Shown in pieces: positions 34,253 through 46,421 of a stretch of 64,000 bases of DNA. This DNA is from Cytophagales bacterium WSM2-2 (GTDB lineage Bacteria; Bacteroidota; Bacteroidia; Cytophagales; Cyclobacteriaceae): positions 186,001-250,000 of the forward strand of contig BNHL01000001.1 in assembly GCA_015472025.1 (NCBI GenBank), read 5' to 3'. The position numbers and the translations under genes were made by a program. The notes below the pieces were generated by a model. That model was not told the DNA's origin. It saw only the letters and a program-made list of their open reading frames with translations, and made no database searches. Within the stretch, counting starts at the first letter, position 1. Every line of letters begins with the position of its first letter.

Positions 34253-36166
34253 TCAGAGCCGAAGCCTAACAAACGCTTCCATGGCTGCATATTCAGCAAG
34301 CCCCAGTTTATTATAGATTTGGGCCGTAGCCCTGTTACGGTCCTCCGCTCTTTGCCAGAATTCCCGGGCGTCATCTCCCTGATATACTACACCATCCTTT
34401 TGTGACTGGTGCTTGAAGACCCCAATGCGCTTGCGCATTACCTGGTCAGGGCTCATTGGCACGGCCATTTCAATCAAGTCAATATCCCATTCGGCCCATG
34501 CGCCCTTGTACAGCCATGTCCAGCAGTCTTTCATGAATGGCTCGCCCTTCAGTCGCTTCAATGCCTCTATCACTGCATCCAGGCAAACTTTATGAGTGCC
34601 ATGCGGGTCGGCAAGGTCACCGGCAGCATAGATCTGGTGAGGCTTGATTTTGCGAATCAGTTCGGTGACTACGGAAAAATCTTCCTCGCTCAATGGTTTT
34701 TTCTGAACCGCACCTGTCTCATAAAATGGCATATTCAGAAAATGAATATTCTCCGGAGCCACCCCAACGAACCGGCACGTGTTTTTTGCTTCACTCACAC
34801 GGATCAGGCCCTTGATTGCACGGACTTCATCTGTGTCTTTTTCTCCCGTCCTTTTCTTTTGCAAGAACCCGTTAGCTTCGTAATACAACTTATCAATAGG
34901 TTCGTTTGTCAAAGAAAATTTCTGATTGAAATCACGCATGAATTCGATGAATCGAAGCGCTTCATCATCGGCCACGGCTATGTTACCCGATGTCTGGTAT
35001 GCAACATGCACTTCATGTCCCTGATCAACAAGCCGCTGAAATGTTCCGCCCATTGAAATAATGTCATCATCAGGATGCGGACTGAAAATGAGGACGCGCT
35101 TACTGGCGGGCACTGCGCGCTCCGGGCGATGCGTATCATCTGCATTGGGTTTGCCTCCAGGCCAGCCAGTAATGGTATGTTGTACCCAATTGAACACCTC
35201 TATATTTATCTCATAAGCCTGGCCATATCTTGCAAGAAGTTCGCTCAATCCATTTTCGTTATAATCTTCATTCGTTAACATCAGGATTGACTTGCCAATA
35301 GCGAGTGCCAGTTGTGTTACCGCTTTTTTAATCATCGGCTTATCCCATTCTACAGAATCAAACAGCCATGGGGTCTTACGCCTGCTCAAAGCTGAAGCAC
35401 AAGATTCGTCCATTACAATTTGGGCGTTGGAATGTCCTTGCAGATATGAAGCTGGAATGTGCTCTGCTACGGGACCTTCCACAGCCTGCCTGATTATTGG
35501 CGACTTATGCTCGCCCCATGCAATCAATACAATTCGCTTCGCCTGCATAATTTTCTTTATGCCAAGCGTTATTGCTTTTCGGGGCACATTGGCAAGTCCA
35601 CCAAAGTCCAATCCGGCATCCGAACGGGTTGTGAAATCAAGAGTTATCAACCGCGTCTGAGATTCTATATGTGAACCAGGTTCATTGAAGCCGATGTGGC
35701 CGTTTCGACCTATCCCTAGCAATTGAAAATCGAGCCCGCCTGTTTCGGAGATTTGCTTCTCGTAGCGCTCGCAAAAGGATTTGATATTGTCCATCCCGAT
35801 CGTGCCATCTGGCACAAAATACTGTCCCTTGGGTATATCGACATAGTCAAACAAATTCTCTTTCATAAACCGATGATAACTCTGCGGAGCGGTGGGCTGC
35901 ATCGGATAATACTCGTCAAGGTTAAAGGAGATCACGTTTTTAAAACTCAATCCTTCTTCTTTATGCATACGAATCAGCTCTGCATAAACTTTCTTCGGGG
36001 AAGATCCTGTTGCCAATCCCAGGACAGCTTTCTTCCCTTCTTTTTGTTTGGCACGAATAAGCTCAGCTATCTCCTTGGCCACCGACTTGGAGGCTGTGTC
36101 GGCAGACGGATAGATAGAGGTTGGAATCTTTTCGAAGTTGATGTGAAGATTGGTTCCGTTGTTCAT
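34253..36166 (-). CDS. nagB: NagB-like glucosamine-6-phosphate deaminase fused to a PIG-L deacetylase domain
   Basis: 637 residues. Residues 1-290 are a NagB-type sugar-phosphate isomerase domain: LATGSSPKKVY (phosphate loop), FNLDEYYPM with Asp84, GIGRNGHIGFNEPGSH with His157 and Glu162. The Asp that completes the NagB triad (Asp141 in E. coli) is Asn155 here. Residues 356-637 are a PIG-L/LmbE zinc deacetylase domain with SPHPDDD (364-368) and the second metal motif DPHGTHKV (His522, His525). NagB turns glucosamine-6-P into fructose-6-P and ammonia; PIG-L enzymes remove N-acetyl groups from GlcNAc-type substrates. It follows the LacI regulator by nine bases on the same strand. The fusion form is known in Bacteroidota. 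Confidence 0.93.
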   Translation of the reverse strand: MNNGTNLHINFEKIPTSIYPSADTASKSVAKEIAELIRAKQKEGKKAVLGLATGSSPKKVYAELIRMHKEEGLSFKNVISFNLDEYYPMQPTAPQSYHRFMKENLFDYVDIPKGQYFVPDGTIGMDNIKSFCERYEKQISETGGLDFQLLGIGRNGHIGFNEPGSHIESQTRLITLDFTTRSDAGLDFGGLANVPRKAITLGIKKIMQAKRIVLIAWGEHKSPIIRQAVEGPVAEHIPASYLQGHSNAQIVMDESCASALSRRKTPWLFDSVEWDKPMIKKAVTQLALAIGKSILMLTNEDYNENGLSELLARYGQAYEINIEVFNWVQHTITGWPGGKPNADDTHRPERAVPASKRVLIFSPHPDDDIISMGGTFQRLVDQGHEVHVAYQTSGNIAVADDEALRFIEFMRDFNQKFSLTNEPIDKLYYEANGFLQKKRTGEKDTDEVRAIKGLIRVSEAKNTCRFVGVAPENIHFLNMPFYETGAVQKKPLSEEDFSVVTELIRKIKPHQIYAAGDLADPHGTHKVCLDAVIEALKRLKGEPFMKDCWTWLYKGAWAEWDIDLIEMAVPMSPDQVMRKRIGVFKHQSQKDGVVYQGDDAREFWQRAEDRNRATAQIYNKLGLAEYAAMEAFVRLRL

Positions 36167-36175
36167 TTAGCTTTA

Positions 36176-37279
36176 TTAATTAGTATGAATCTTCGTTATT
36201 TCTGTAGGATGATGCTCAATATGGTCACCCAGGTAAGAGCGCAGGTTTTGTCTCGTAATCACTTCCAGTGGGAATAAGTTGATTGGCTTGATCTCTTTCT
36301 TAAATATCAAATGGTTTGCCAGACAACTGATACCTTCGATCGCTTGTTGCTCAGGTTTCTGGTGGATGAGGAAGTCGATAATCCCCGACTTCAGGTATTC
36401 AATATTTTTAGACAGTAGATCATATCCCACCAGCCGTATGCCGTTCTTGCCATGGCTCTTCAAAAATGACGCGGCCGTCTCTGTTCCTTTGGATGAACTG
36501 ACGAAGATTCCCTTGAGGTCAGGCTTGTTTAACAAAACAGCCAGTTTCTTTTTAAATGAAAAATCCGATGAGCTCGTTCTGTTTAAAGACTCGATGGTTG
36601 AACCGGAAGGGAAAAACTCTTTGACATAATCCCTGAATCCTTTTTCCTTTTGGAGTAAGTGCACCGAGTCTTCCAGATCTTCATCCACGTGCAATACACC
36701 AAACGTACCCGCGTCCTTTTGACCAATGCAAAGAAGCTCTGCAGCTACCCTTCCGCTCTGGTAAAGATCCTGACCGATAAAAGAGAGGGCGTTCGATTCA
36801 GTGATATTGGTATTGAATAGTGCAAACGGAATTCCTTTTTTCTGAACTTGTTCAAAGAAAGGGAGGGTTTCATTATAAAATATAGGTGCAACAAGAATTC
36901 CGTCAGGTCTTGTTTTTATGACCTTCAGGGAGACATCCTCAAAAGAACTTTTGTTCTCAAGGTCGAATCCGTAGGTGTTAATATGAACGCTATAATGCGA
37001 CCATTCCTTTTTTGACTGGATGATTCCCTTGTATACCATGCCCCAATAAGGATCCTGTTCGTGGTTGGGCAACAGCGCGGCAATCTTGTACGCTTTGTTC
37101 GATCCGAGGGTGCGTGCAATCAGGTTGGGCCTGTATTCATTTTTAGTAAGTGCCGCTTTTACTTTCTTCAACGCCTTGGCTGATACCTTACCCCGATTGT
37201 GCAAAACACGATCCACCGTGCCCACGGAAACCCCCGCGGCCTTCGCAATATCCTTGATCCGTATAGCCCGCTTTGCCAT
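36176..37279 (-). CDS. LacI-family transcriptional regulator
   Basis: 367 residues. The N-terminal LacI headpiece is RIKDIAKAAGVSVGTVDRVL followed by HNRGKVSAKALKKVKAAL and the hinge. A periplasmic-binding-protein-like sensor domain follows (NKAYKIAALLPNHEQDPYWG, PDGILVAPIFYNETLPFFEQ, GRVAAELLC). Effector is likely a sugar or amino sugar. It heads an operon with the NagB/PIG-L gene and faces the susC-susD pair across 175 bases containing two palindromes of the LacI operator type. Self-regulation is likely, since its TATATTTG promoter element lies between them. Confidence 0.95.
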   Translation of the reverse strand: MAKRAIRIKDIAKAAGVSVGTVDRVLHNRGKVSAKALKKVKAALTKNEYRPNLIARTLGSNKAYKIAALLPNHEQDPYWGMVYKGIIQSKKEWSHYSVHINTYGFDLENKSSFEDVSLKVIKTRPDGILVAPIFYNETLPFFEQVQKKGIPFALFNTNITESNALSFIGQDLYQSGRVAAELLCIGQKDAGTFGVLHVDEDLEDSVHLLQKEKGFRDYVKEFFPSGSTIESLNRTSSSDFSFKKKLAVLLNKPDLKGIFVSSSKGTETAASFLKSHGKNGIRLVGYDLLSKNIEYLKSGIIDFLIHQKPEQQAIEGISCLANHLIFKKEIKPINLFPLEVITRQNLRSYLGDHIEHHPTEITKIHTN

Positions 37280-37327
37280 AATTCGTATTACACTGCAAAA
37301 GAAGTGTTTTTTTGCACACTTTTAATG

Positions 37328-37339
37328 TGTGCGCGCACA
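37328..37339. promoter_or_regulatory. Palindromic operator 1 (12 bp, LacI-type)
   Basis: TGTGCGCGCACA, a perfect palindrome centred on a CG step as in LacI-family operators. Its centre is 20 bp, about two helical turns, from that of operator 2. It overlaps the lacI -7 element by two bases. Confidence 0.75.
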
Positions 37340-37345
37340 AATATA
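37338..37345 (-). promoter_or_regulatory. Probable -7 element of the lacI-nagB promoter
   Basis: TATATTTG on the minus strand is a full match to TAnnTTTG. No convincing TTTG is seen about 19 bases upstream, but the element sits between two operators, 59 bases from the lacI start. Confidence 0.55.
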
Positions 37346-37346
37346 G

Positions 37347-37360
37347 TGTGTGCGCACACA
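37347..37360. promoter_or_regulatory. Palindromic operator 2 (14 bp, LacI-type)
   Basis: TGTGTGCGCACACA, a perfect palindrome sharing the TGTGNGC-type half with operator 1. It ends 15 bases before the susC -33 element, so a bound regulator would sit next to, not on, that promoter. Confidence 0.8.
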
Positions 37361-37375
37361 TTTTATCAGTTTTCC

Positions 37376-37406
37376 TTTGGTTTATTCGCATTTAACATTA
37401 GGTTTA
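37376..37406 (+). promoter_or_regulatory. Probable susC promoter
   Basis: TTTG at 37376-37379, 19 bases, then TAGGTTTA at 37399-37406, which matches TAnnTTTG except for the last base. The susC start is 49 bases downstream. Confidence 0.6.
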
Positions 37407-37454
37407 CAATGAAGTAAAATCCTATTCATTAAAAACCCTAAATCAAATTCATGT

Positions 37455-40400
37455 ATGAAATTTTACCAAAGCATCCTGTTGTCGCTGTGTTTTACATGGC
37501 TGACAACAGTGGCTCTGGCACAGTCGCGCACTGTGACAGGGACTGTTAAAGACCCCAATGGAGCTGGCTTGCCAGGCGTTACCATTCAGGTCAAAGGCAC
37601 CGCTTCGGGAACTGTTTCTGACAGTGATGGAAAATATGCCATCGCAGTCGGAGGAGAAAATGCTGTCGTGGTATTTTCTTTCATTGGCTTCGCTACACAG
37701 GAAATCCAGGTGGGAAGCCAATCTGTGATTGATGTCTCGCTTGCGGAAGACACCAAGCAATTGCAGGAAGTAATAGTAACAGCACTCGGAGTCGAAAAAG
37801 ATTCCAAAACTCTGGGCTATTCAGTAACGAAAGTGGACGCTTCGTCCATTACTCAAGCCCGCGAGACAAACATGATCAACTCACTTGAAGGAAGAGTAGC
37901 CGGTGTCAACATCAGTGGAACAAATGGCGGCCCAGGATCTTCAAGTAGTATCGTGATCCGAGGAATTAACTCGTTGGGCGGATCGAACCCACTCTTTGTA
38001 ATTAACGGGGTGCCGATAGACAATACCACGCGAGGAAGTGCTGGACAGTATGGTGGAGTAGACCAAGGAGATGGGATTTCCAATTTAAACCCGGACGACA
38101 TTAAAGAACTCACGGTACTAAAAGGAGCAACGGCTTCGGCCTTGTATGGATCTAGGGCTGCCAACGGTGTGATCATAATCACTACTAAAACTGGCAAGGA
38201 TCGCAAAGGCTTTGGTCTTGAATACAACGGCAATCTCACTTTTGATCAGGCTATCAACTATCATGACTTTCAGGATCAGTATGGCCAAGGGCTCAACGGA
38301 CTTAAGCCTGTAGATCAGACATCGGCATACAATAGTGGCCAGTCAAGCTGGGGAGCCAAATTAGATGGAAGCTCCGTTCCGCAATTTGATGGTGTATCAA
38401 GACCTTATTCTGCACAGAAGGATAATTTCAAAAATTTCTACAGAACAGGGAGCACTTTCACTAATACCATTTCTATTGGAAACAGCAATGAAAATGGTAG
38501 CTATCGTTTTTCTGCCTCTGACCTTGCCAACAAATCAATTGTCCCCAATTCAGGTTTGAGCAGAAATACCTTCAACCTGAATGTCAACTACAAAATCGTT
38601 CCGAAACTAACGTTTGACTTGATGTCCAACTACATCATCGAAAATTTTCTGAACAGACCCAACCTGAGTGATTCTCCAGGAAATCCAAACTTTGGTATTT
38701 CATTTTTACCTACAAGTCTGAACGCATCTGTTTTGAGTCCAGGAACAGTGGCGAATGGAAATGAAAGTAATTTCTCAAGCAATGTTTACGTCACTAATCC
38801 TTATTTCGCGGTGAATAAATTCATCAACAATACTAGCCGCAACAGGGTCATTAACGTGGTTTCGTTGAAGTATTCATTTACAAATTGGTTGACGTTACAA
38901 GGTCGTGTAGGAAATGATATCTATTTTGATAATTATACTTCCGTGACGCCAACGGGTACAGCCTATCTCCCCAAAGGAGGAATGAATCAGGTAAATTCCA
39001 AAGGAATTGAGACCAATGCTGATTTTCTCCTGACTGCTAATAAAAAAATAACCGATGATATTACCTTGACGGGATCAATTGGTGGCAACCTGAGAAAAAG
39101 TTCTCTTGAAAAACATACTGTTTCTGGCCAGGAATTTGCCATCCATTATTTATACACAACTCAAAATCTCGTGTCCAGATCCCCACTCGATGAACTTTAT
39201 CGGCGAGAGGTGCAGTCCTATTATTATACAGCAGAATTTAGTTATAAAAATTTTCTGACACTGAATACTACAGGTCGGCAGGATAAATTTAGCGTCCTAG
39301 ATGGCCGATCAATTTTCTATCCTTCGGTAGGTGCAAGTTTTGTATTCTCTGATTTACTGAATTTTCCTAAGCTAAGCTTTGGGAAATTCCGCGCTTCCTG
39401 GGCCAACAGTACCGGGAACCCAGATCAATATATTTACTCCACCAATCTTTACTATAGCATCAATTCATCTAGCAATGGGCATCCCATTGGAACAATAAAT
39501 AATGTAAATATCCCCGACAAAAACCTCAAGCCTTTCTTAATGAAAGAATTTGAATTTGGTTTAGACTTGCGATTTCTTGACAACAGAATTGGATTAGATA
39601 TTTCGTATTATAATCGCAAAACCACTCAAGAACTTATCAATGCCACAACATCAGTTACTTCAGGATATGTAGGTGCCGCATTCAATGCTGCTGATCTGCA
39701 GAACTCAGGCATTGAACTGATGTTGAGGGGTACACCCGTAAAGTCATCAAATCTGACCTGGAATGTCTCATTCAACTTTACGAAGAATACTAATGAAGTG
39801 ACCTCCCTCGCGAACGGTCTGACTGATATCACCGTACAAGGTGGTATTTCACGTTCAGGAAACGCATTCATCAATCACGAGGTAGGTAAAGCAGCCTCAC
39901 AAGTGATGGCCTTCGATTATAAACGAGATGCTAACGGAAATATCGCTTATGATGATAGCGGCCTTCCGATACAAGGTAAGCTGACTGCCTATGGATCTGG
40001 TTATCATAATACGTTTGGTGGTATCATGAATGAGTTCGTCTATAAGGGTTTTAATATTGCATTTCTGATCGATTATAAATACGGTGGCAAAATCTTCTCA
40101 GCCACCGATTACTATGCATACATCTTCGGGCTGCACAAAAATACGTTGGTGGGTCGCGAAGGAGAAAGCATCGTAGGTGTTGGAGTCAATGATAAGACCG
40201 GTCTGGCAAATACGGTATCTGCCAAACCCTGGGATTACGACCAGGCAATCGCTACAAATGTATCATCTCAATTCGTGTATGACGCCAGTTTTATCAAGCT
40301 AAGGCAAATAACTATCGGATATAAATTGCCTCAAGCATTATTCAATGGAACGCCTATTAAGGGAGCTACCTTTTCACTTGTGGCCCGCAACTTGGCAATC

Positions 40401-40526
40401 CTGATGAAACACACACCAAACATTGATCCCGAGTCGAACTACAGTAACACGGTTGGACAAGGACTGGAGTTAGCAGGAGTCCCTCCCGCCCGGAATATAG
40501 GATTCAATCTGAATCTAAAGTTTTAG
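37455..40526 (+). CDS. SusC/RagA-family TonB-linked outer membrane protein
   Basis: 1023 residues. A signal peptide (LSLCFTWLTTVALAQ) precedes a CarboxypepD-reg-like domain (VTGTVKDPNGAGLPGVTIQV, GTVSDSDGKYAI), then the plug with the TonB box region QEVIVTALG and GVNISGTNGGPGSSSSIVIR, LFVINGVPIDN and LKGATASALYGSRAANGVI, all SusC signatures. The remainder is a 22-stranded barrel ending NIGFNLNLKF. It imports glycan fragments through the outer membrane, using TonB energy, with the SusD lipoprotein as lid. The susD gene starts 21 bases after its stop. Substrate is inferred from the divergent lacI-nagB pair to contain amino sugar. Confidence 0.97.
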   Translation: MKFYQSILLSLCFTWLTTVALAQSRTVTGTVKDPNGAGLPGVTIQVKGTASGTVSDSDGKYAIAVGGENAVVVFSFIGFATQEIQVGSQSVIDVSLAEDTKQLQEVIVTALGVEKDSKTLGYSVTKVDASSITQARETNMINSLEGRVAGVNISGTNGGPGSSSSIVIRGINSLGGSNPLFVINGVPIDNTTRGSAGQYGGVDQGDGISNLNPDDIKELTVLKGATASALYGSRAANGVIIITTKTGKDRKGFGLEYNGNLTFDQAINYHDFQDQYGQGLNGLKPVDQTSAYNSGQSSWGAKLDGSSVPQFDGVSRPYSAQKDNFKNFYRTGSTFTNTISIGNSNENGSYRFSASDLANKSIVPNSGLSRNTFNLNVNYKIVPKLTFDLMSNYIIENFLNRPNLSDSPGNPNFGISFLPTSLNASVLSPGTVANGNESNFSSNVYVTNPYFAVNKFINNTSRNRVINVVSLKYSFTNWLTLQGRVGNDIYFDNYTSVTPTGTAYLPKGGMNQVNSKGIETNADFLLTANKKITDDITLTGSIGGNLRKSSLEKHTVSGQEFAIHYLYTTQNLVSRSPLDELYRREVQSYYYTAEFSYKNFLTLNTTGRQDKFSVLDGRSIFYPSVGASFVFSDLLNFPKLSFGKFRASWANSTGNPDQYIYSTNLYYSINSSSNGHPIGTINNVNIPDKNLKPFLMKEFEFGLDLRFLDNRIGLDISYYNRKTTQELINATTSVTSGYVGAAFNAADLQNSGIELMLRGTPVKSSNLTWNVSFNFTKNTNEVTSLANGLTDITVQGGISRSGNAFINHEVGKAASQVMAFDYKRDANGNIAYDDSGLPIQGKLTAYGSGYHNTFGGIMNEFVYKGFNIAFLIDYKYGGKIFSATDYYAYIFGLHKNTLVGREGESIVGVGVNDKTGLANTVSAKPWDYDQAIATNVSSQFVYDASFIKLRQITIGYKLPQALFNGTPIKGATFSLVARNLAILMKHTPNIDPESNYSNTVGQGLELAGVPPARNIGFNLNLKF

Positions 40527-40547: not shown

Positions 40548-42155
40548 ATGAAAACGAAATTATTTATAAGGAACACATTAGTAATCTTAGTATTGCTGAT
40601 TGCCACACAGTGTACTTCAGATTTAGCAAAGTTAAACGTAGACCCGACCACAGCTACGGAAGATAATTTTGATCCCAATTTTTTACTTACAACAGCTCAA
40701 GTAAGTTTTACCGGAAGTGCCGATTTCAGCTATGAAACATGGCGCGCCCAGCTTATCCACTTCAGTGTTATGATGCAACATTTTTCTCATGTGGCCGGCT
40801 ATTGGGTAGGTGATAAATACTTGCTTAACCAAGCATACAATGAAGCTTACTTTATTGAAGCATTTGCTGGTGGGGGAGCCAATCTGGGCCAAGTCCAGAA
40901 TATCGTATCCGTTCTTTCTATTTCCAAAGGCAGGCCTCTATACAGTAATATATACCAGATTGCCAGAATATGGAAAGTAGTGATCTTTCATCGACTGACC
41001 GACATCTATGGTGATATCCCTTACTTTGATGCTGCGCAAGGTTACTATAAAGGTATTCTCAAACCTGCGTACGACAGTCAATCCGACATTTACGCAGATA
41101 TGCTGAAAGAACTGGATGAGGCTGCTGCCGCCCTCGACCCCTCCAAGGATGCACCAACAGGTGATTTGATTTACAACGGCAACATTAGTCAATGGAAAAA
41201 ATTTGCTTATTCAATGATGCTTCGTTTGGGGACTCGTCTGAGTAAGGTTGATCCAACCAACTCTAAAAAGTGGATTGAAAAAGCAGCGGCAGGTGGTGTA
41301 TTCTCTAGTATCAATGACAACGCGTTCATCATTGCTGACCCGTCCAATGGTAGGGCCAGTACAAACAGAATAAGCCAAGTCCTAAACCTCCCCTACGAGA
41401 TACCAAACATCCGATGGAGCAAGGCATTTGTTGATTTCTTAAAAAACAACAACGACCCACGCTTGTCTGCGCTTTCAGAGCTGCCTCCTCCTGCTCCCGA
41501 CAATAACACGTTGAAGATTGTGGGCGATACGAATCCCGCCAACCAGCTTGGCATGCCTAACGGATATGATCTATTGGGTGGTGCTACAGATATCAGCAAA
41601 GCTCCCGGTTATCCTGGTGCGGTAGCTGGTGATCCGCTGGGCAAATATTCCCGTCCACGTAATACAATCCTTGCCAAAGATGGTGGACCAACCTTCATCA
41701 TCACTTACGCTGAAACTGAGTTGATGTTAGCTGAGGCAGCGCAACTGGGTTACACAGTGACCGGAAGCGCCAGCACTCACTACAATAACGGTGTTACTGC
41801 TGCAATGTCACAGCTCGCGCAGTTCGATGCAGCTGCCACGATTCCTGCAGCATCCATCACTACATACCTGACGGCCAATCCATACAATCCTGCAAATGGC
41901 ATTCAGATGATCAATACGCAGTACTGGGCTGCAACCATCCTCAATGACTATGAGACATTTGCTAACTGGAGAAGAAGTGGCTTCCCTGCACTAACTCCAG
42001 TGAATTATCCTAACAACGTTACCGGTGGTACAATCCCGCGGAGACTAATCTACCCGCAATCTGAAGCTGCTCTTAACGGAGACAACTACAACACTGCCAT
42101 TGTCAAGATCAATGGTGGAAACACATTGGTTGGTAGAGTTTGGTGGGATAAATAA
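40548..42155 (+). CDS. SusD/RagB-family nutrient-binding lipoprotein
   Basis: 535 residues with a lipoprotein signal (VILVLLIATQCTSD, Cys22), expected on the outer face of the outer membrane as partner of the SusC protein. It belongs to the SusD-like group with the N-terminal NVDPTTATEDNFDPNFLLTT and the tetratricopeptide helical bundle (IYQIARIWKVVIFHRLTDIY, YADMLKELDEAAAAL). Further landmarks are WKKFAYSMMLRLGTRLSKVD, ITYAETELMLAEAAQLGY and FANWRRSGFPALTPV. It binds the glycan and closes over the SusC pore. The pair ends at a strong terminator; no glycoside hydrolase is co-transcribed. Confidence 0.96.
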   Translation: MKTKLFIRNTLVILVLLIATQCTSDLAKLNVDPTTATEDNFDPNFLLTTAQVSFTGSADFSYETWRAQLIHFSVMMQHFSHVAGYWVGDKYLLNQAYNEAYFIEAFAGGGANLGQVQNIVSVLSISKGRPLYSNIYQIARIWKVVIFHRLTDIYGDIPYFDAAQGYYKGILKPAYDSQSDIYADMLKELDEAAAALDPSKDAPTGDLIYNGNISQWKKFAYSMMLRLGTRLSKVDPTNSKKWIEKAAAGGVFSSINDNAFIIADPSNGRASTNRISQVLNLPYEIPNIRWSKAFVDFLKNNNDPRLSALSELPPPAPDNNTLKIVGDTNPANQLGMPNGYDLLGGATDISKAPGYPGAVAGDPLGKYSRPRNTILAKDGGPTFIITYAETELMLAEAAQLGYTVTGSASTHYNNGVTAAMSQLAQFDAAATIPAASITTYLTANPYNPANGIQMINTQYWAATILNDYETFANWRRSGFPALTPVNYPNNVTGGTIPRRLIYPQSEAALNGDNYNTAIVKINGGNTLVGRVWWDK

Positions 42156-43514: not shown

Positions 43515-43634
43515 AATAAATAATGTAAAAGCAAGCTATCAAAATACTCTTCACCCTCCATCCCCTGTACATCGGGATAAATGATGTGGCGATGTGAATG
43601 TCGTTTTAGTAACTTCATTTTCTCATTCTTACTT

Positions 43635-46421
43635 ATGATCCGGGTTAACCATCACATTTTCTTTGTCATCATTTTGTTTGCCTTTGGTGTATTCAACAAC
43701 CTCTGCGCACAGAAGCTTAAATCGATCTCCATTGACCAACTCAGAATGGTGTCAGCCGAAGATGCTAATGGCAAAAAATTTCCAGTCAATACACCGGTCG
43801 TTTCATATCAAGTTAAAAAACGTGACGTTTTTATTGCGGCAAATTCAGTTCAAGTGACATCAACTGCGGCCGGATCTTTTGCCCAATCGCTGAAATACAT
43901 TCTTACATTTCAAAATACGACTAAAGACACATTGACCATTGACAATGTTGTGCCGCTCGGTGAATCGAAAGAAAGAGTTTACATCACTGGGCTTGGAGAT
44001 CATGGACTATCACGAACTCATCTTTTTGTTCCCGGAAGAGAACCTGTCAATGTTATTGTTCCCGACAATGCCTGGGAGCTTGGTTATTCATCTTTGAAAC
44101 TGAACCAAGAACAAAACCTTTGTGCCCTTGCCCGGCGAGACGTATCCTCCATTCAAAAAGGAAAAAGAAAAAGGTTTGAAACACAACTTTTTCCCGGTGG
44201 GTCGGTGAGTTATATGCTGTACTTCGACATCTTTTCAGGTGATTGGCAGGACGGTATTCGGAAAGTTTTCCAGGAGAAGATGCTTTATGATGTCGAGCGT
44301 TTTGATGAATCACTTTACAACCGGGGTGATCTCGCCTGGATTCAGAAGGCCTATGTCATTCACTTGATGATGACATGGGACAAAAGCTACTTCGACTATG
44401 TCACGAGCAAATTCAATCTTAAGGAATTTGTCAGGAAGGGTAAGACAATTTATGGTGGAGACGACATTGTTTGTCTCTGGCCTACGTGGCCGACTCTGGG
44501 CATGGACCAACGAAATCAATTTGACCTGTACCGTGACTTGCCCGGTGGATTGGCCGCAGTGCGCTCACTTGCTGACACTCTACGAAAGATGGGGACAAAA
44601 TTCTTCATCGCTTACAATCCGTGGGATGCAAGCACACGAACAGAAGGGCATCTCCAAGGCCTGGAAAACCTCATCCGTGAAACTTCTCCTGATGGTGTTG
44701 TACTTGACACACAAGGGGAATCAAGTAAAGAACTGCAGGCTGCAGCAGATAAAGCGAAGAGTGGCGTGATCATGTACAGTGAAGGAATGGCTGTACCTAA
44801 AAATATGAGCGGAATTGTGTCAGGTAGAGTGCATAATGCGTTGTACTATCCTCCACTACTCAACCTGAACAAAATCATCCGGCCTGACTTTGCTATTTTC
44901 CGCGTAGCCGAAGTTTGTAAAGAGCCAATCATCAGGGAATATGCGACTTCTTTTTTTAACGGATATGGAACAGAGATCAACCAATTCGCTCCGGGACATC
45001 CCGATTGGGAGCAAGAACAATACAGGTTCCTTGGCAAGACTTCGATGATCCTCCGTGAGAACAGTGAAAATTTTGTATCAAAAGACTACACGCCACTAGT
45101 CAGCACAACACACGACAGTATTTGGGTGAACCGTTGGTTGAAGGACGGCAAAACGATCTACACTGTTTTCAGTCTCAAGCCAGAAGGATACTCCGGACCG
45201 CTATTCAATGTTCAACCCCGAGACGGTTTTCATTTTGTTGACCTGTGGCATCATAGCTTGTTGAGTCCCCTTCAAAAAGGATCTGCGTTTTATATTTCTG
45301 CAGAGGCAAATTCATTCGATGCAAAATACCTTGGAACAAATAATGAAGGAGCTGTCGATTGCATTGCCGAGCTACCAGAAATTATTAAAGCGAAGCGTGA
45401 GGGCAATCTCCTCGCCTATTCATCCACAGTGGAATGCACCCTAAAAATTTGGGCAGGTAATCCGTCTTACGACAAGAAGCCTTTGCTCATGAAATCCCGG
45501 GAGGGGATTGTAAACATTAAAGAGACGTTCGGAAGTTATGAGGGGAACCTGATAGTTCAGGCATTTAGAAATGATCAATTGCTTGATGAAACTGTTGTAG
45601 CGATTGCATCAGGAGAACCATTACTCATCAGTAAAATCGAAAAGGCAATTGCTTCATCATTCCCAAAAGGGATGGTAAAAATTCCTGCAGGAAAATTTAC
45701 TTACAAATCGACACACGGTGACGAATTCATCCGGTACCCCAATGACTTTGAAGGGAAAACTTTTGATATGCCGGAATTTTACATGGACCAATTTCCCGTC
45801 ACCAACCGGGAGTTCAAAGAGTTTCTTGAGGCCACTCATTATTCTCCAGGCGATACCAGCAATTTTCTGAAACACTGGAAAAAGAAAATGATTCCAAAAG
45901 GAGAAGAAAATTTCCCGGTAGTCTATGTGACGCGCGAAGATGCATTGGCTTATGCCAGATGGGCCAATAAACGACTCCCGACCGAAATTGAATGGCAATA
46001 CGCAGCACAAGTCGGCAAAAATTCCGATTGGCCCTGGAAGCAGACGAAACCTGTCAGCCGAAAAGAAGAAGTAGTGACCGAAACACTCACCGTTTTTTCT
46101 TTGGAAGGAATTGATCCGAAGATGTGCAACCTGGGCGATGGAAAACTATACCCGGTCGGAAAGTATCCTGCAGGTGCAAACGTCTATGGATTGAATGACC
46201 TCGTGGGTTGCGTCTGGCAACTCACCAACGATCTCTATGAAAGCGGAAGTTACCGTTATGTCATGATGAAAGGCGGAAGCTACTTCAAGCCAAGCTCAAG
46301 CTGGTGGTATGTGCAAGGTGGGCCTCGCGAGCTTCATTATAAGCAGTACCTGTTACGGGTTTCTCCAGGATTTGAACGAAACGCCACTGTTGGATTCCGC
46401 TGTGTTGCAGACATGCACTAG
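43635..46421 (+). CDS. Secreted TIM-barrel glycosidase-like protein fused to an FGE/sulfatase-modifying-fold domain
   Basis: 928 residues from the ATG that starts a signal peptide (MIRVNHHIFFVIILFAFGVF); an upstream in-frame ATG is not preceded by coding character. Residues 30-200 form a beta-sandwich (YILTFQNTTKDTLTIDNVVP). Residues 205-480 look like a glycosidase TIM barrel: YGGDDIVCLWPTWPTLGM, LRKMGTKFFIAYNPWD, SPDGVVLDTQGES and GVIMYSEGMAVP, with Asp358 and Glu383 as candidate catalytic acids. Residues 675-928 are an FGE-sulfatase domain (MVKIPAGKF, FYMDQFPVTNREFKEFLEAT, RLPTEIEWQYAA, YGLNDLVGCVWQLTND, MMKGGSY, VGFRCVAD). The two active-site cysteines of true FGE are absent after KGGSY. 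Substrate unknown. A sugar isomerase-like gene follows. Confidence 0.83.
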   Translation: MIRVNHHIFFVIILFAFGVFNNLCAQKLKSISIDQLRMVSAEDANGKKFPVNTPVVSYQVKKRDVFIAANSVQVTSTAAGSFAQSLKYILTFQNTTKDTLTIDNVVPLGESKERVYITGLGDHGLSRTHLFVPGREPVNVIVPDNAWELGYSSLKLNQEQNLCALARRDVSSIQKGKRKRFETQLFPGGSVSYMLYFDIFSGDWQDGIRKVFQEKMLYDVERFDESLYNRGDLAWIQKAYVIHLMMTWDKSYFDYVTSKFNLKEFVRKGKTIYGGDDIVCLWPTWPTLGMDQRNQFDLYRDLPGGLAAVRSLADTLRKMGTKFFIAYNPWDASTRTEGHLQGLENLIRETSPDGVVLDTQGESSKELQAAADKAKSGVIMYSEGMAVPKNMSGIVSGRVHNALYYPPLLNLNKIIRPDFAIFRVAEVCKEPIIREYATSFFNGYGTEINQFAPGHPDWEQEQYRFLGKTSMILRENSENFVSKDYTPLVSTTHDSIWVNRWLKDGKTIYTVFSLKPEGYSGPLFNVQPRDGFHFVDLWHHSLLSPLQKGSAFYISAEANSFDAKYLGTNNEGAVDCIAELPEIIKAKREGNLLAYSSTVECTLKIWAGNPSYDKKPLLMKSREGIVNIKETFGSYEGNLIVQAFRNDQLLDETVVAIASGEPLLISKIEKAIASSFPKGMVKIPAGKFTYKSTHGDEFIRYPNDFEGKTFDMPEFYMDQFPVTNREFKEFLEATHYSPGDTSNFLKHWKKKMIPKGEENFPVVYVTREDALAYARWANKRLPTEIEWQYAAQVGKNSDWPWKQTKPVSRKEEVVTETLTVFSLEGIDPKMCNLGDGKLYPVGKYPAGANVYGLNDLVGCVWQLTNDLYESGSYRYVMMKGGSYFKPSSSWWYVQGGPRELHYKQYLLRVSPGFERNATVGFRCVADMH

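Follow-up and report, generated by a model that had tools for sequence, protein, structure and literature searches.

How can one pair of regulator sites serve two promoters that fire in opposite directions, one for the regulator and a catabolic gene and the other for an importer? SusCD importers are known mostly as targets of hybrid two-component, ECF or SusR regulation. The window analyzed here, a 64-kb stretch of the genome of Cytophagales bacterium WSM2-2, raises this question where lacI (36176-37279, minus strand) and susC (37455-40526, plus strand) diverge, with two palindromic operators in the DNA between them. The data are compatible with a reading, given a probability of about 0.5, in which LacI dimers on both dyads would combine occlusion of lacI-nagB with contact activation of susCD.

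Paired operators between lacI and susC

The regulator is a protein of 367 aa that, as in the LacI/GalR family, joins an N-terminal LacI helix-turn-helix (PF00356, 53.7 bits against a cut-off of 27) to a sensor domain resembling periplasmic-binding proteins (Peripla_BP_4, PF13407, 124.7 bits against 35.1), and its gene has a palindromic, CG-centered operator nearby. None of the 19 named NCBIfam LacI equivalogs listed (RbsR, GntR, CcpA, GalR, PurR and others) exceeds its cut-off, the best reaching 73.5 bits against 382. On the same strand, nagB (34253-36166) starts 9 bp past the end of lacI, and its product, which resembles glucosamine-6-phosphate deaminase and also has a PIG-L domain, scores 1043 bits with NCBIfam PRK02122; nagB-like ORFs of a length similar to this fusion with a GlcNAc-PI de-N-acetylase domain (637-640 aa) recur in the loci of relatives. 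In the opposite direction, susC encodes a SusC/RagA TonB-linked receptor (TIGR04056, 597 bits against a cut-off of 368) and adjoins the lipoprotein gene susD (40548-42155, plus strand; SusD-like_2, PF12771, 256 bits against 27), so that a SusCD pair of two typical proteins is present. Elsewhere in the window, positions 43581-46421 encode a protein of 946 aa whose only Pfam match at E 0.001 is a C-terminal FGE-sulfatase domain (residues 696-942).

The initial annotation had placed two palindromes in this region, with centers 20 bp apart. Both are present in the sequence: operator 1, TGTGTGCGCGCACA, occupies 37326-37339 (center 37332.5, on the predicted lacI start), and operator 2, the perfect dyad TGTGTGCGCACACA, occupies 37347-37360 (center 37353.5). 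The distance of 20 bp, however, holds only for the literal string TGTGCGCGCACA, which at 37328-37339 represents operator 1 with its frame displaced by 1 bp. This literal frame was rejected because the dyad common to relatives, in which the half-sites TGTGTGC and GCACACA meet, has CG at its center; operator 1 is therefore taken as 37326-37339 and the spacing as 21 bp, which corresponds to two helix turns.

A chance origin of these matches is excluded. With up to two mismatches, TGTGTGCGCACACA has three overlapping matches in the window, all at operators 1 and 2, against a mean of 0.14 and a largest value of 1 in 100 shuffles; with up to one mismatch, the 14-mer occurs in the 5.55-Mb genome at these two operators only. 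At two mismatches, 11 forward matches are found genome-wide, of which 3 lie here and the 8 elsewhere are background when set against 7 in the reversed control. The search for further genomic copies, which had been proposed as a way to define the regulon, thus yields no additional site above background, so the regulon looks local in this genome. Scanning the genome for twins with a gap of 7 and up to three mismatches recovers the operator pair plus a single three-mismatch match that shares operator 1, with 1 match in the control. A weak third site (37305-37318) lies one more 21-bp step into the lacI leader; this half-site was taken as chance, given its three mismatches and a reversed control that also gives 1.

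Promoter geometry and the sign at susC

Toward lacI, the operators coincide with the promoter. The -7 element TATATTTG (37338-37345, minus strand) is wedged between them and overlaps operator 1 by 2 bp, as the initial annotation had described, and a weak -33 element, ACTG, lies at 37367-37370 (minus strand) with a spacer of 21. In the available text of a study of F. johnsoniae (PMC6847099), the Bacteroidota -7 element has six nearly invariant bases, from T-12 to G-5, and by the numbering of that study the lacI start is predicted at about 37333, inside operator 1, with operator 2 centered at about -20.5. Operator 2 thereby sits inside the -33/-7 spacer of lacI and, at the same time, 15 bp upstream of the susC promoter.

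Near relatives keep this arrangement: the -7 element is wedged between the operators at the same place in L044, L045 and L052, and L044 and L045 have TTTG as the -33 element with a spacer of 19. Looser occluding cases are found at L049 and L062 with the best promoter and at L053 and L054 with the second-best promoter. The occluding arrangement is present at 8 of 14 lacI-direction sites and at none of 11 in genus g35, which we take to be Hymenobacter, and at 6 of the 14 sites (L046, L047, L048, L050, L051 and L068) no clear promoter between the operators was found. As such, autorepression by occlusion is not general across relatives. For the window itself, a separate nagB promoter inside lacI was considered and rejected, since the best score in the 435 bases before nagB is 7.7 against a shuffled mean of 7.9 and 69% of shuffles do as well. 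The self-repression of lacI-nagB that had been predicted initially is backed by the geometry, by its conservation in near relatives and by the lack of a separate nagB promoter, and these supports favor plain occlusion as a predicted route to lacI-nagB autorepression.

Toward susC, the same operators lie upstream. The promoter, TTTG-N19-TAGGTTTA, consists of a -33 element at 37376-37379 and a -7 element at 37399-37406 (both plus strand) and falls outside both operators, where the initial annotation had put it (37376-37406). If the first T of the -7 element is counted as -12, again by F. johnsoniae numbering (PMC6847099), transcription would start at about 37411, which places operator 2 at about -57.5 and operator 1 at about -78.5. 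A susC-direction promoter that overlaps the operators was rejected as the weaker one in the window (7.7 vs 9.5) and in L044 (8.3 vs 9.5); at the second susC of L048 the operator-overlapping promoter scores higher (9.0 vs 8.7), and the upstream geometry appears there with the second-best promoter only.

The upstream distance recurs widely. It is the same at the susC genes of L044, L045, L046, L049, L051, L052 and L054 and at the first copy in L048, and operator-to-promoter distances of 13-17 bp recur at susC and nagB genes of relatives. Specifically, the best promoter has its -7 element starting 44-47 bp from the center of the proximal operator at 8 of 10 susC sites (a set from which two near relatives, the matching L045 and the missing L050, were dropped; the full set by best promoter gives 9 of 12), against a mean of 0.41 and a largest value of 3 in 300 shuffles. 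The spacing is absent at L050, L053 and the single-operator L096, and also at L059, L105 and L110. At L059 and L105, 78-79 bp separate the susC promoter from the recognized operator, 31-32 bp or about three helical turns beyond the usual distance, and the proximal site has perhaps decayed.

An order-wide scan for an operator followed, after any gap of 0-30, by TTG, N19-20 and TAnnTTT gives 25 matches in 16 of 390 genomes, compared with 2 in the control. In all of them the operator center lies 44-48 bp from the -7 element, with gaps of 15-19, and 21 of the 25 fall at -58.5 or -59.5, which was counted against activation beside the contact repression of gal P1 by GalR from -60.5. These matches come from four genera (20 in g35, 2 each in g71 and g108, 1 in g1) and do not represent 25 independent events, and one of them, which in G252 reads from the other strand a site already counted, may be due to chance. 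Some susC genes moreover have operators of their own: in G331 and G144 a second operator pair precedes the susC promoter by 14 bp, separated from the lacI pair by 409 and 302 bp (the G144 contig ends before it reaches susC, and the promoter there is identical to that of G331), and in G286 an operator pair precedes a second, non-divergent susC (L048:14181). Because the upstream geometry recurs in relatives, including at these separate pairs, susC is very probably a direct target of the LacI regulator. The initial expectation of a neighbor effect, possibly activation, on susC seems thereby to be exceeded, given the dedicated pairs and the conserved distance, while its second part stays at the level of a possibility. 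A fixed operator-to-promoter distance, as in class I-like regulators that act by upstream contact, is found here with exceptions and suggests direct contact with RNA polymerase.

In the favored mechanism, the LacI protein would bind as two dimers to the two 14-bp dyads on one face of the helix. On the lacI side, operator 2 between the -33 and -7 elements and operator 1 over the predicted start would exclude RNA polymerase and so repress lacI-nagB. Toward susC, where the pair lies upstream of the -33 element, the bound LacI would contact RNA polymerase and activate susCD, with LacI binding presumably changed by an amino-sugar phosphate. The sites, their spacing, their co-occurrence with LacI and the two recurrent geometries are computed, and from these features we infer binding, contact, sign, effector and transcript starts. 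As to the sign at susC, contact activation is slightly favored over contact inhibition, a narrow commitment made at roughly even odds.

Contact inhibition is the most serious competitor, and we place it close behind, at somewhat less than an even chance. It holds that LacI at about -57.5 represses susC through RNA polymerase, with one sign everywhere and an amino-sugar phosphate that induces all of the genes. Either sign is possible near this position because GalR, bound at -60.5, represses gal P1 by contact and activates P2, which starts 5 bp upstream, according to the accessible part of PMC4693257. The nagB genes speak for inhibition: the operator stands directly before TATATTTG, in occluding geometry, in G286 and G253 and has upstream geometry in other families, and if regulation of nagB has a single sign throughout, repression would follow for the upstream site. 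The cores of upstream-type nagB promoters in g35 also score high (9.0-9.7), which was counted against activation, as repressed promoters are often of this kind. On the other side, the best promoter in g35 loci has upstream spacing at 9 of 9 nagB and 9 of 12 susC sites (18 of 21 together, with L059 and L105 counted as misses) and the occluding lacI-direction arrangement at 0 of 11, a distribution more usual for an activator. The rule for CcpA points the same way: from positions upstream of -35 its sites generally activate, lev being an exception (PMC3463425, as far as its available text goes).

The -7 element itself bears on the choice as well. TAGGTTTA at the window susC is poor, which was counted for activation; G at -10/-9 of the element is virtually absent in F. 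johnsoniae in the accessible portion of PMC6847099. G at -9, considered as a mark of activator dependence, is found in 21 of the 25 scan matches, a figure for which GC-rich loci offer only 1 comparator; among the non-operator promoters of AT-rich loci, none of 7 perfect ones and 5 of 19 imperfect ones have it. An operator at nagB is present at none of 29 loci from 27 LacI-less g35 genomes (31 searched) versus 12 of 14 LacI-plus loci, a comparison that speaks for neither sign because the nagB promoters of LacI-less genomes are altogether different. If contact activation is nonetheless correct, one phased pair could form a reciprocal switch that represses the regulator and nagB and activates the importer, with an activation module conserved across several families; we offer this extended proposal tentatively. 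Such a switch, if true, would favor import when the cell is starved of amino sugars and catabolism when it is fed.

Far less probable is that the operators serve lacI only and that susC, with a promoter that adjoins them by accident, is a bystander. In this genome the pair does sit squarely on the lacI promoter, as this explanation would have it, but the second pairs of G331 and G144 at the same distance from susC, the pair before the non-divergent susC of G286 and the recurrence of the spacing across the order all argue against it.

The regulator link across the order

The least probable alternative, that the palindromes belong to a regulator other than this LacI, could draw on the six further LacI helix-turn-helix genes in the genome and on the fact that binding by this LacI is a prediction, but it conflicts with the restriction of exact twin pairs to genomes with a homolog, with the proximity of most exact core sites to a homolog and with the covariation of helix and hinge residues with the operator. 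Of the 390 genomes of the order that were sampled, 75 contain a homolog of the regulator (E <= 1e-20). A search for the exact twin pattern, with gaps of 0-30 allowed, gives 10 pairs in 8 of the 390 genomes and none in the reversed control; all 8 belong to the 75. The gaps are 7 (five pairs), 17 (three) and 18 (two), that is, the centers are 21, 31 or 32 bp apart and never otherwise spaced. Looser pairs in the fetched loci, leaving out those inside ORFs and counting in frame duplicates, have center spacings of 21 (13), 31 (14), 32 (8) and others (9). When up to three mismatches are allowed, the 75 homolog genomes contain 36 pairs with a gap of 7 and the reversed control 12, so background accounts for part of these weak pairs.

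Exact copies of the core GTGTGCGCACAC were found at 45 places, spread over 25 of the 75 homolog genomes, compared with 2 places in the control. Of these copies, 38 have a regulator homolog within 15 kb; the remaining seven are in G250 (three), G180, G049, G326 and G139, and in the last two genomes they fall inside ORFs. Similarly, 15 of the 16 genomes positive in the promoter scan have a regulator homolog, the exception being G193 (84% complete), in which none was found at E 1e-20.

Operator presence also covaries with residues of the recognition helix and the hinge, a link that is not to be read as a measured probability. Among 44 GTVDRV-type homologs in the fetched loci (three more distant ATVDRV proteins stand outside this number), 27 have a site scoring at least 12/14 within 700 bp upstream. 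The hinge G is present in 27 of 27 with an operator versus 3 of 17 without, and V or I in the helix in 25 of 27 versus 4 of 17, proportions whose tests are overstated by the relatedness of the rows. Raising the threshold from 12 to 13 gives 19 of 19 versus 11 of 25 for the hinge G. Operator labels set by hand (30 with, 14 without) give 28 of 30 versus 1 of 14 for V or I and 30 versus 0 for the hinge G; the labels set by score threshold are weaker and agree.

Two departures from the common pattern were seen among the homologs. G229 has two paralogous lacI-susC loci (L053 and L054), each with its own twin operators; L054 combines the helix residue E with the site TGTGTCCGCACACA, which in L062 goes with I, and a specificity swap in L054 is only a guess. 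Homologs at L065, L072, L077 and L079 lack sites with a TGCGCA center and have TGTGTTCGAACACA-like or CGTGTACGTACACA sites nearby, which suggests a sister regulon with a different operator center.

Function and known systems

The genes that adjoin the operators or the regulator in relatives give a first indication of function. By Pfam, a set of 20 proteins (one without a match) includes ROK kinase, MFS and SSF transporters, GH3, GH18, GH92, GH2 with an exo-beta-glucosaminidase domain, alpha-L-fucosidase, an HGSNAT-type acetyltransferase, CBM9 and Asparaginase_2, a family that includes aspartylglucosaminidases. Together with nagB, this gene content suggests the use of GlcNAc-containing glycans, perhaps N-glycans; it also makes GlcN-6-P or GlcNAc-6-P a likelier effector, which is still a guess. 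At L100 and L101, SusCD proteins 44-49% identical to the window pair are encoded divergently from a gene cluster, with operators 32 bp apart in between, and the cluster at L100 runs in the order fucosidase, ROK, CBM9, asparaginase.

A conserved one-component LacI module at a fixed promoter distance would provide a model for regulator contact with the unusual RNA polymerase of Bacteroidota and, if true, a compact inducible part for use in these bacteria. Operator anatomy of this kind was not found for Bacteroidota in the available text of the mostly open literature covered, RegPrecise aside (PMC3878776, PMC12125979, PMC5507952, PMC3463425, PMC7366714, PMC6847099 and PMC4693257), and an earlier description is possible.

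Three known systems invite comparison. The LacI-type regulators KdgR, UxaR, UxmR and UxuR of Bacteroides and the ROK protein NanR are likewise sugar regulators of Bacteroidota defined by comparative genomics; in the accessible part of that work (PMC3878776), however, hexuronates are attributed to the LacI members, a ROK protein is given for GlcNAc, and no such operator anatomy appears. The cre sites of CcpA in B. subtilis resemble the present operators in being 14-bp sites with a central CG, and they are said to activate from upstream of -35 and to repress where they overlap the promoter (PMC3463425, available text), but CcpA is a global regulator that works with HPr-Ser-P, whereas the regulator of the window looks local and has a Peripla_BP_4 sensor. 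A further likeness is with GalR at the gal promoters of E. coli, where a dimer of the LacI/GalR family at an upstream operator (-60.5) contacts RNA polymerase and the promoter decides the sign (PMC4693257, in the part available). There, the two operators are 113 bp apart and are joined by a DNA loop with HU, while in the window the dyads are spaced by 21 bp, the promoter is of the Bacteroidota type, and lacI and susC diverge.
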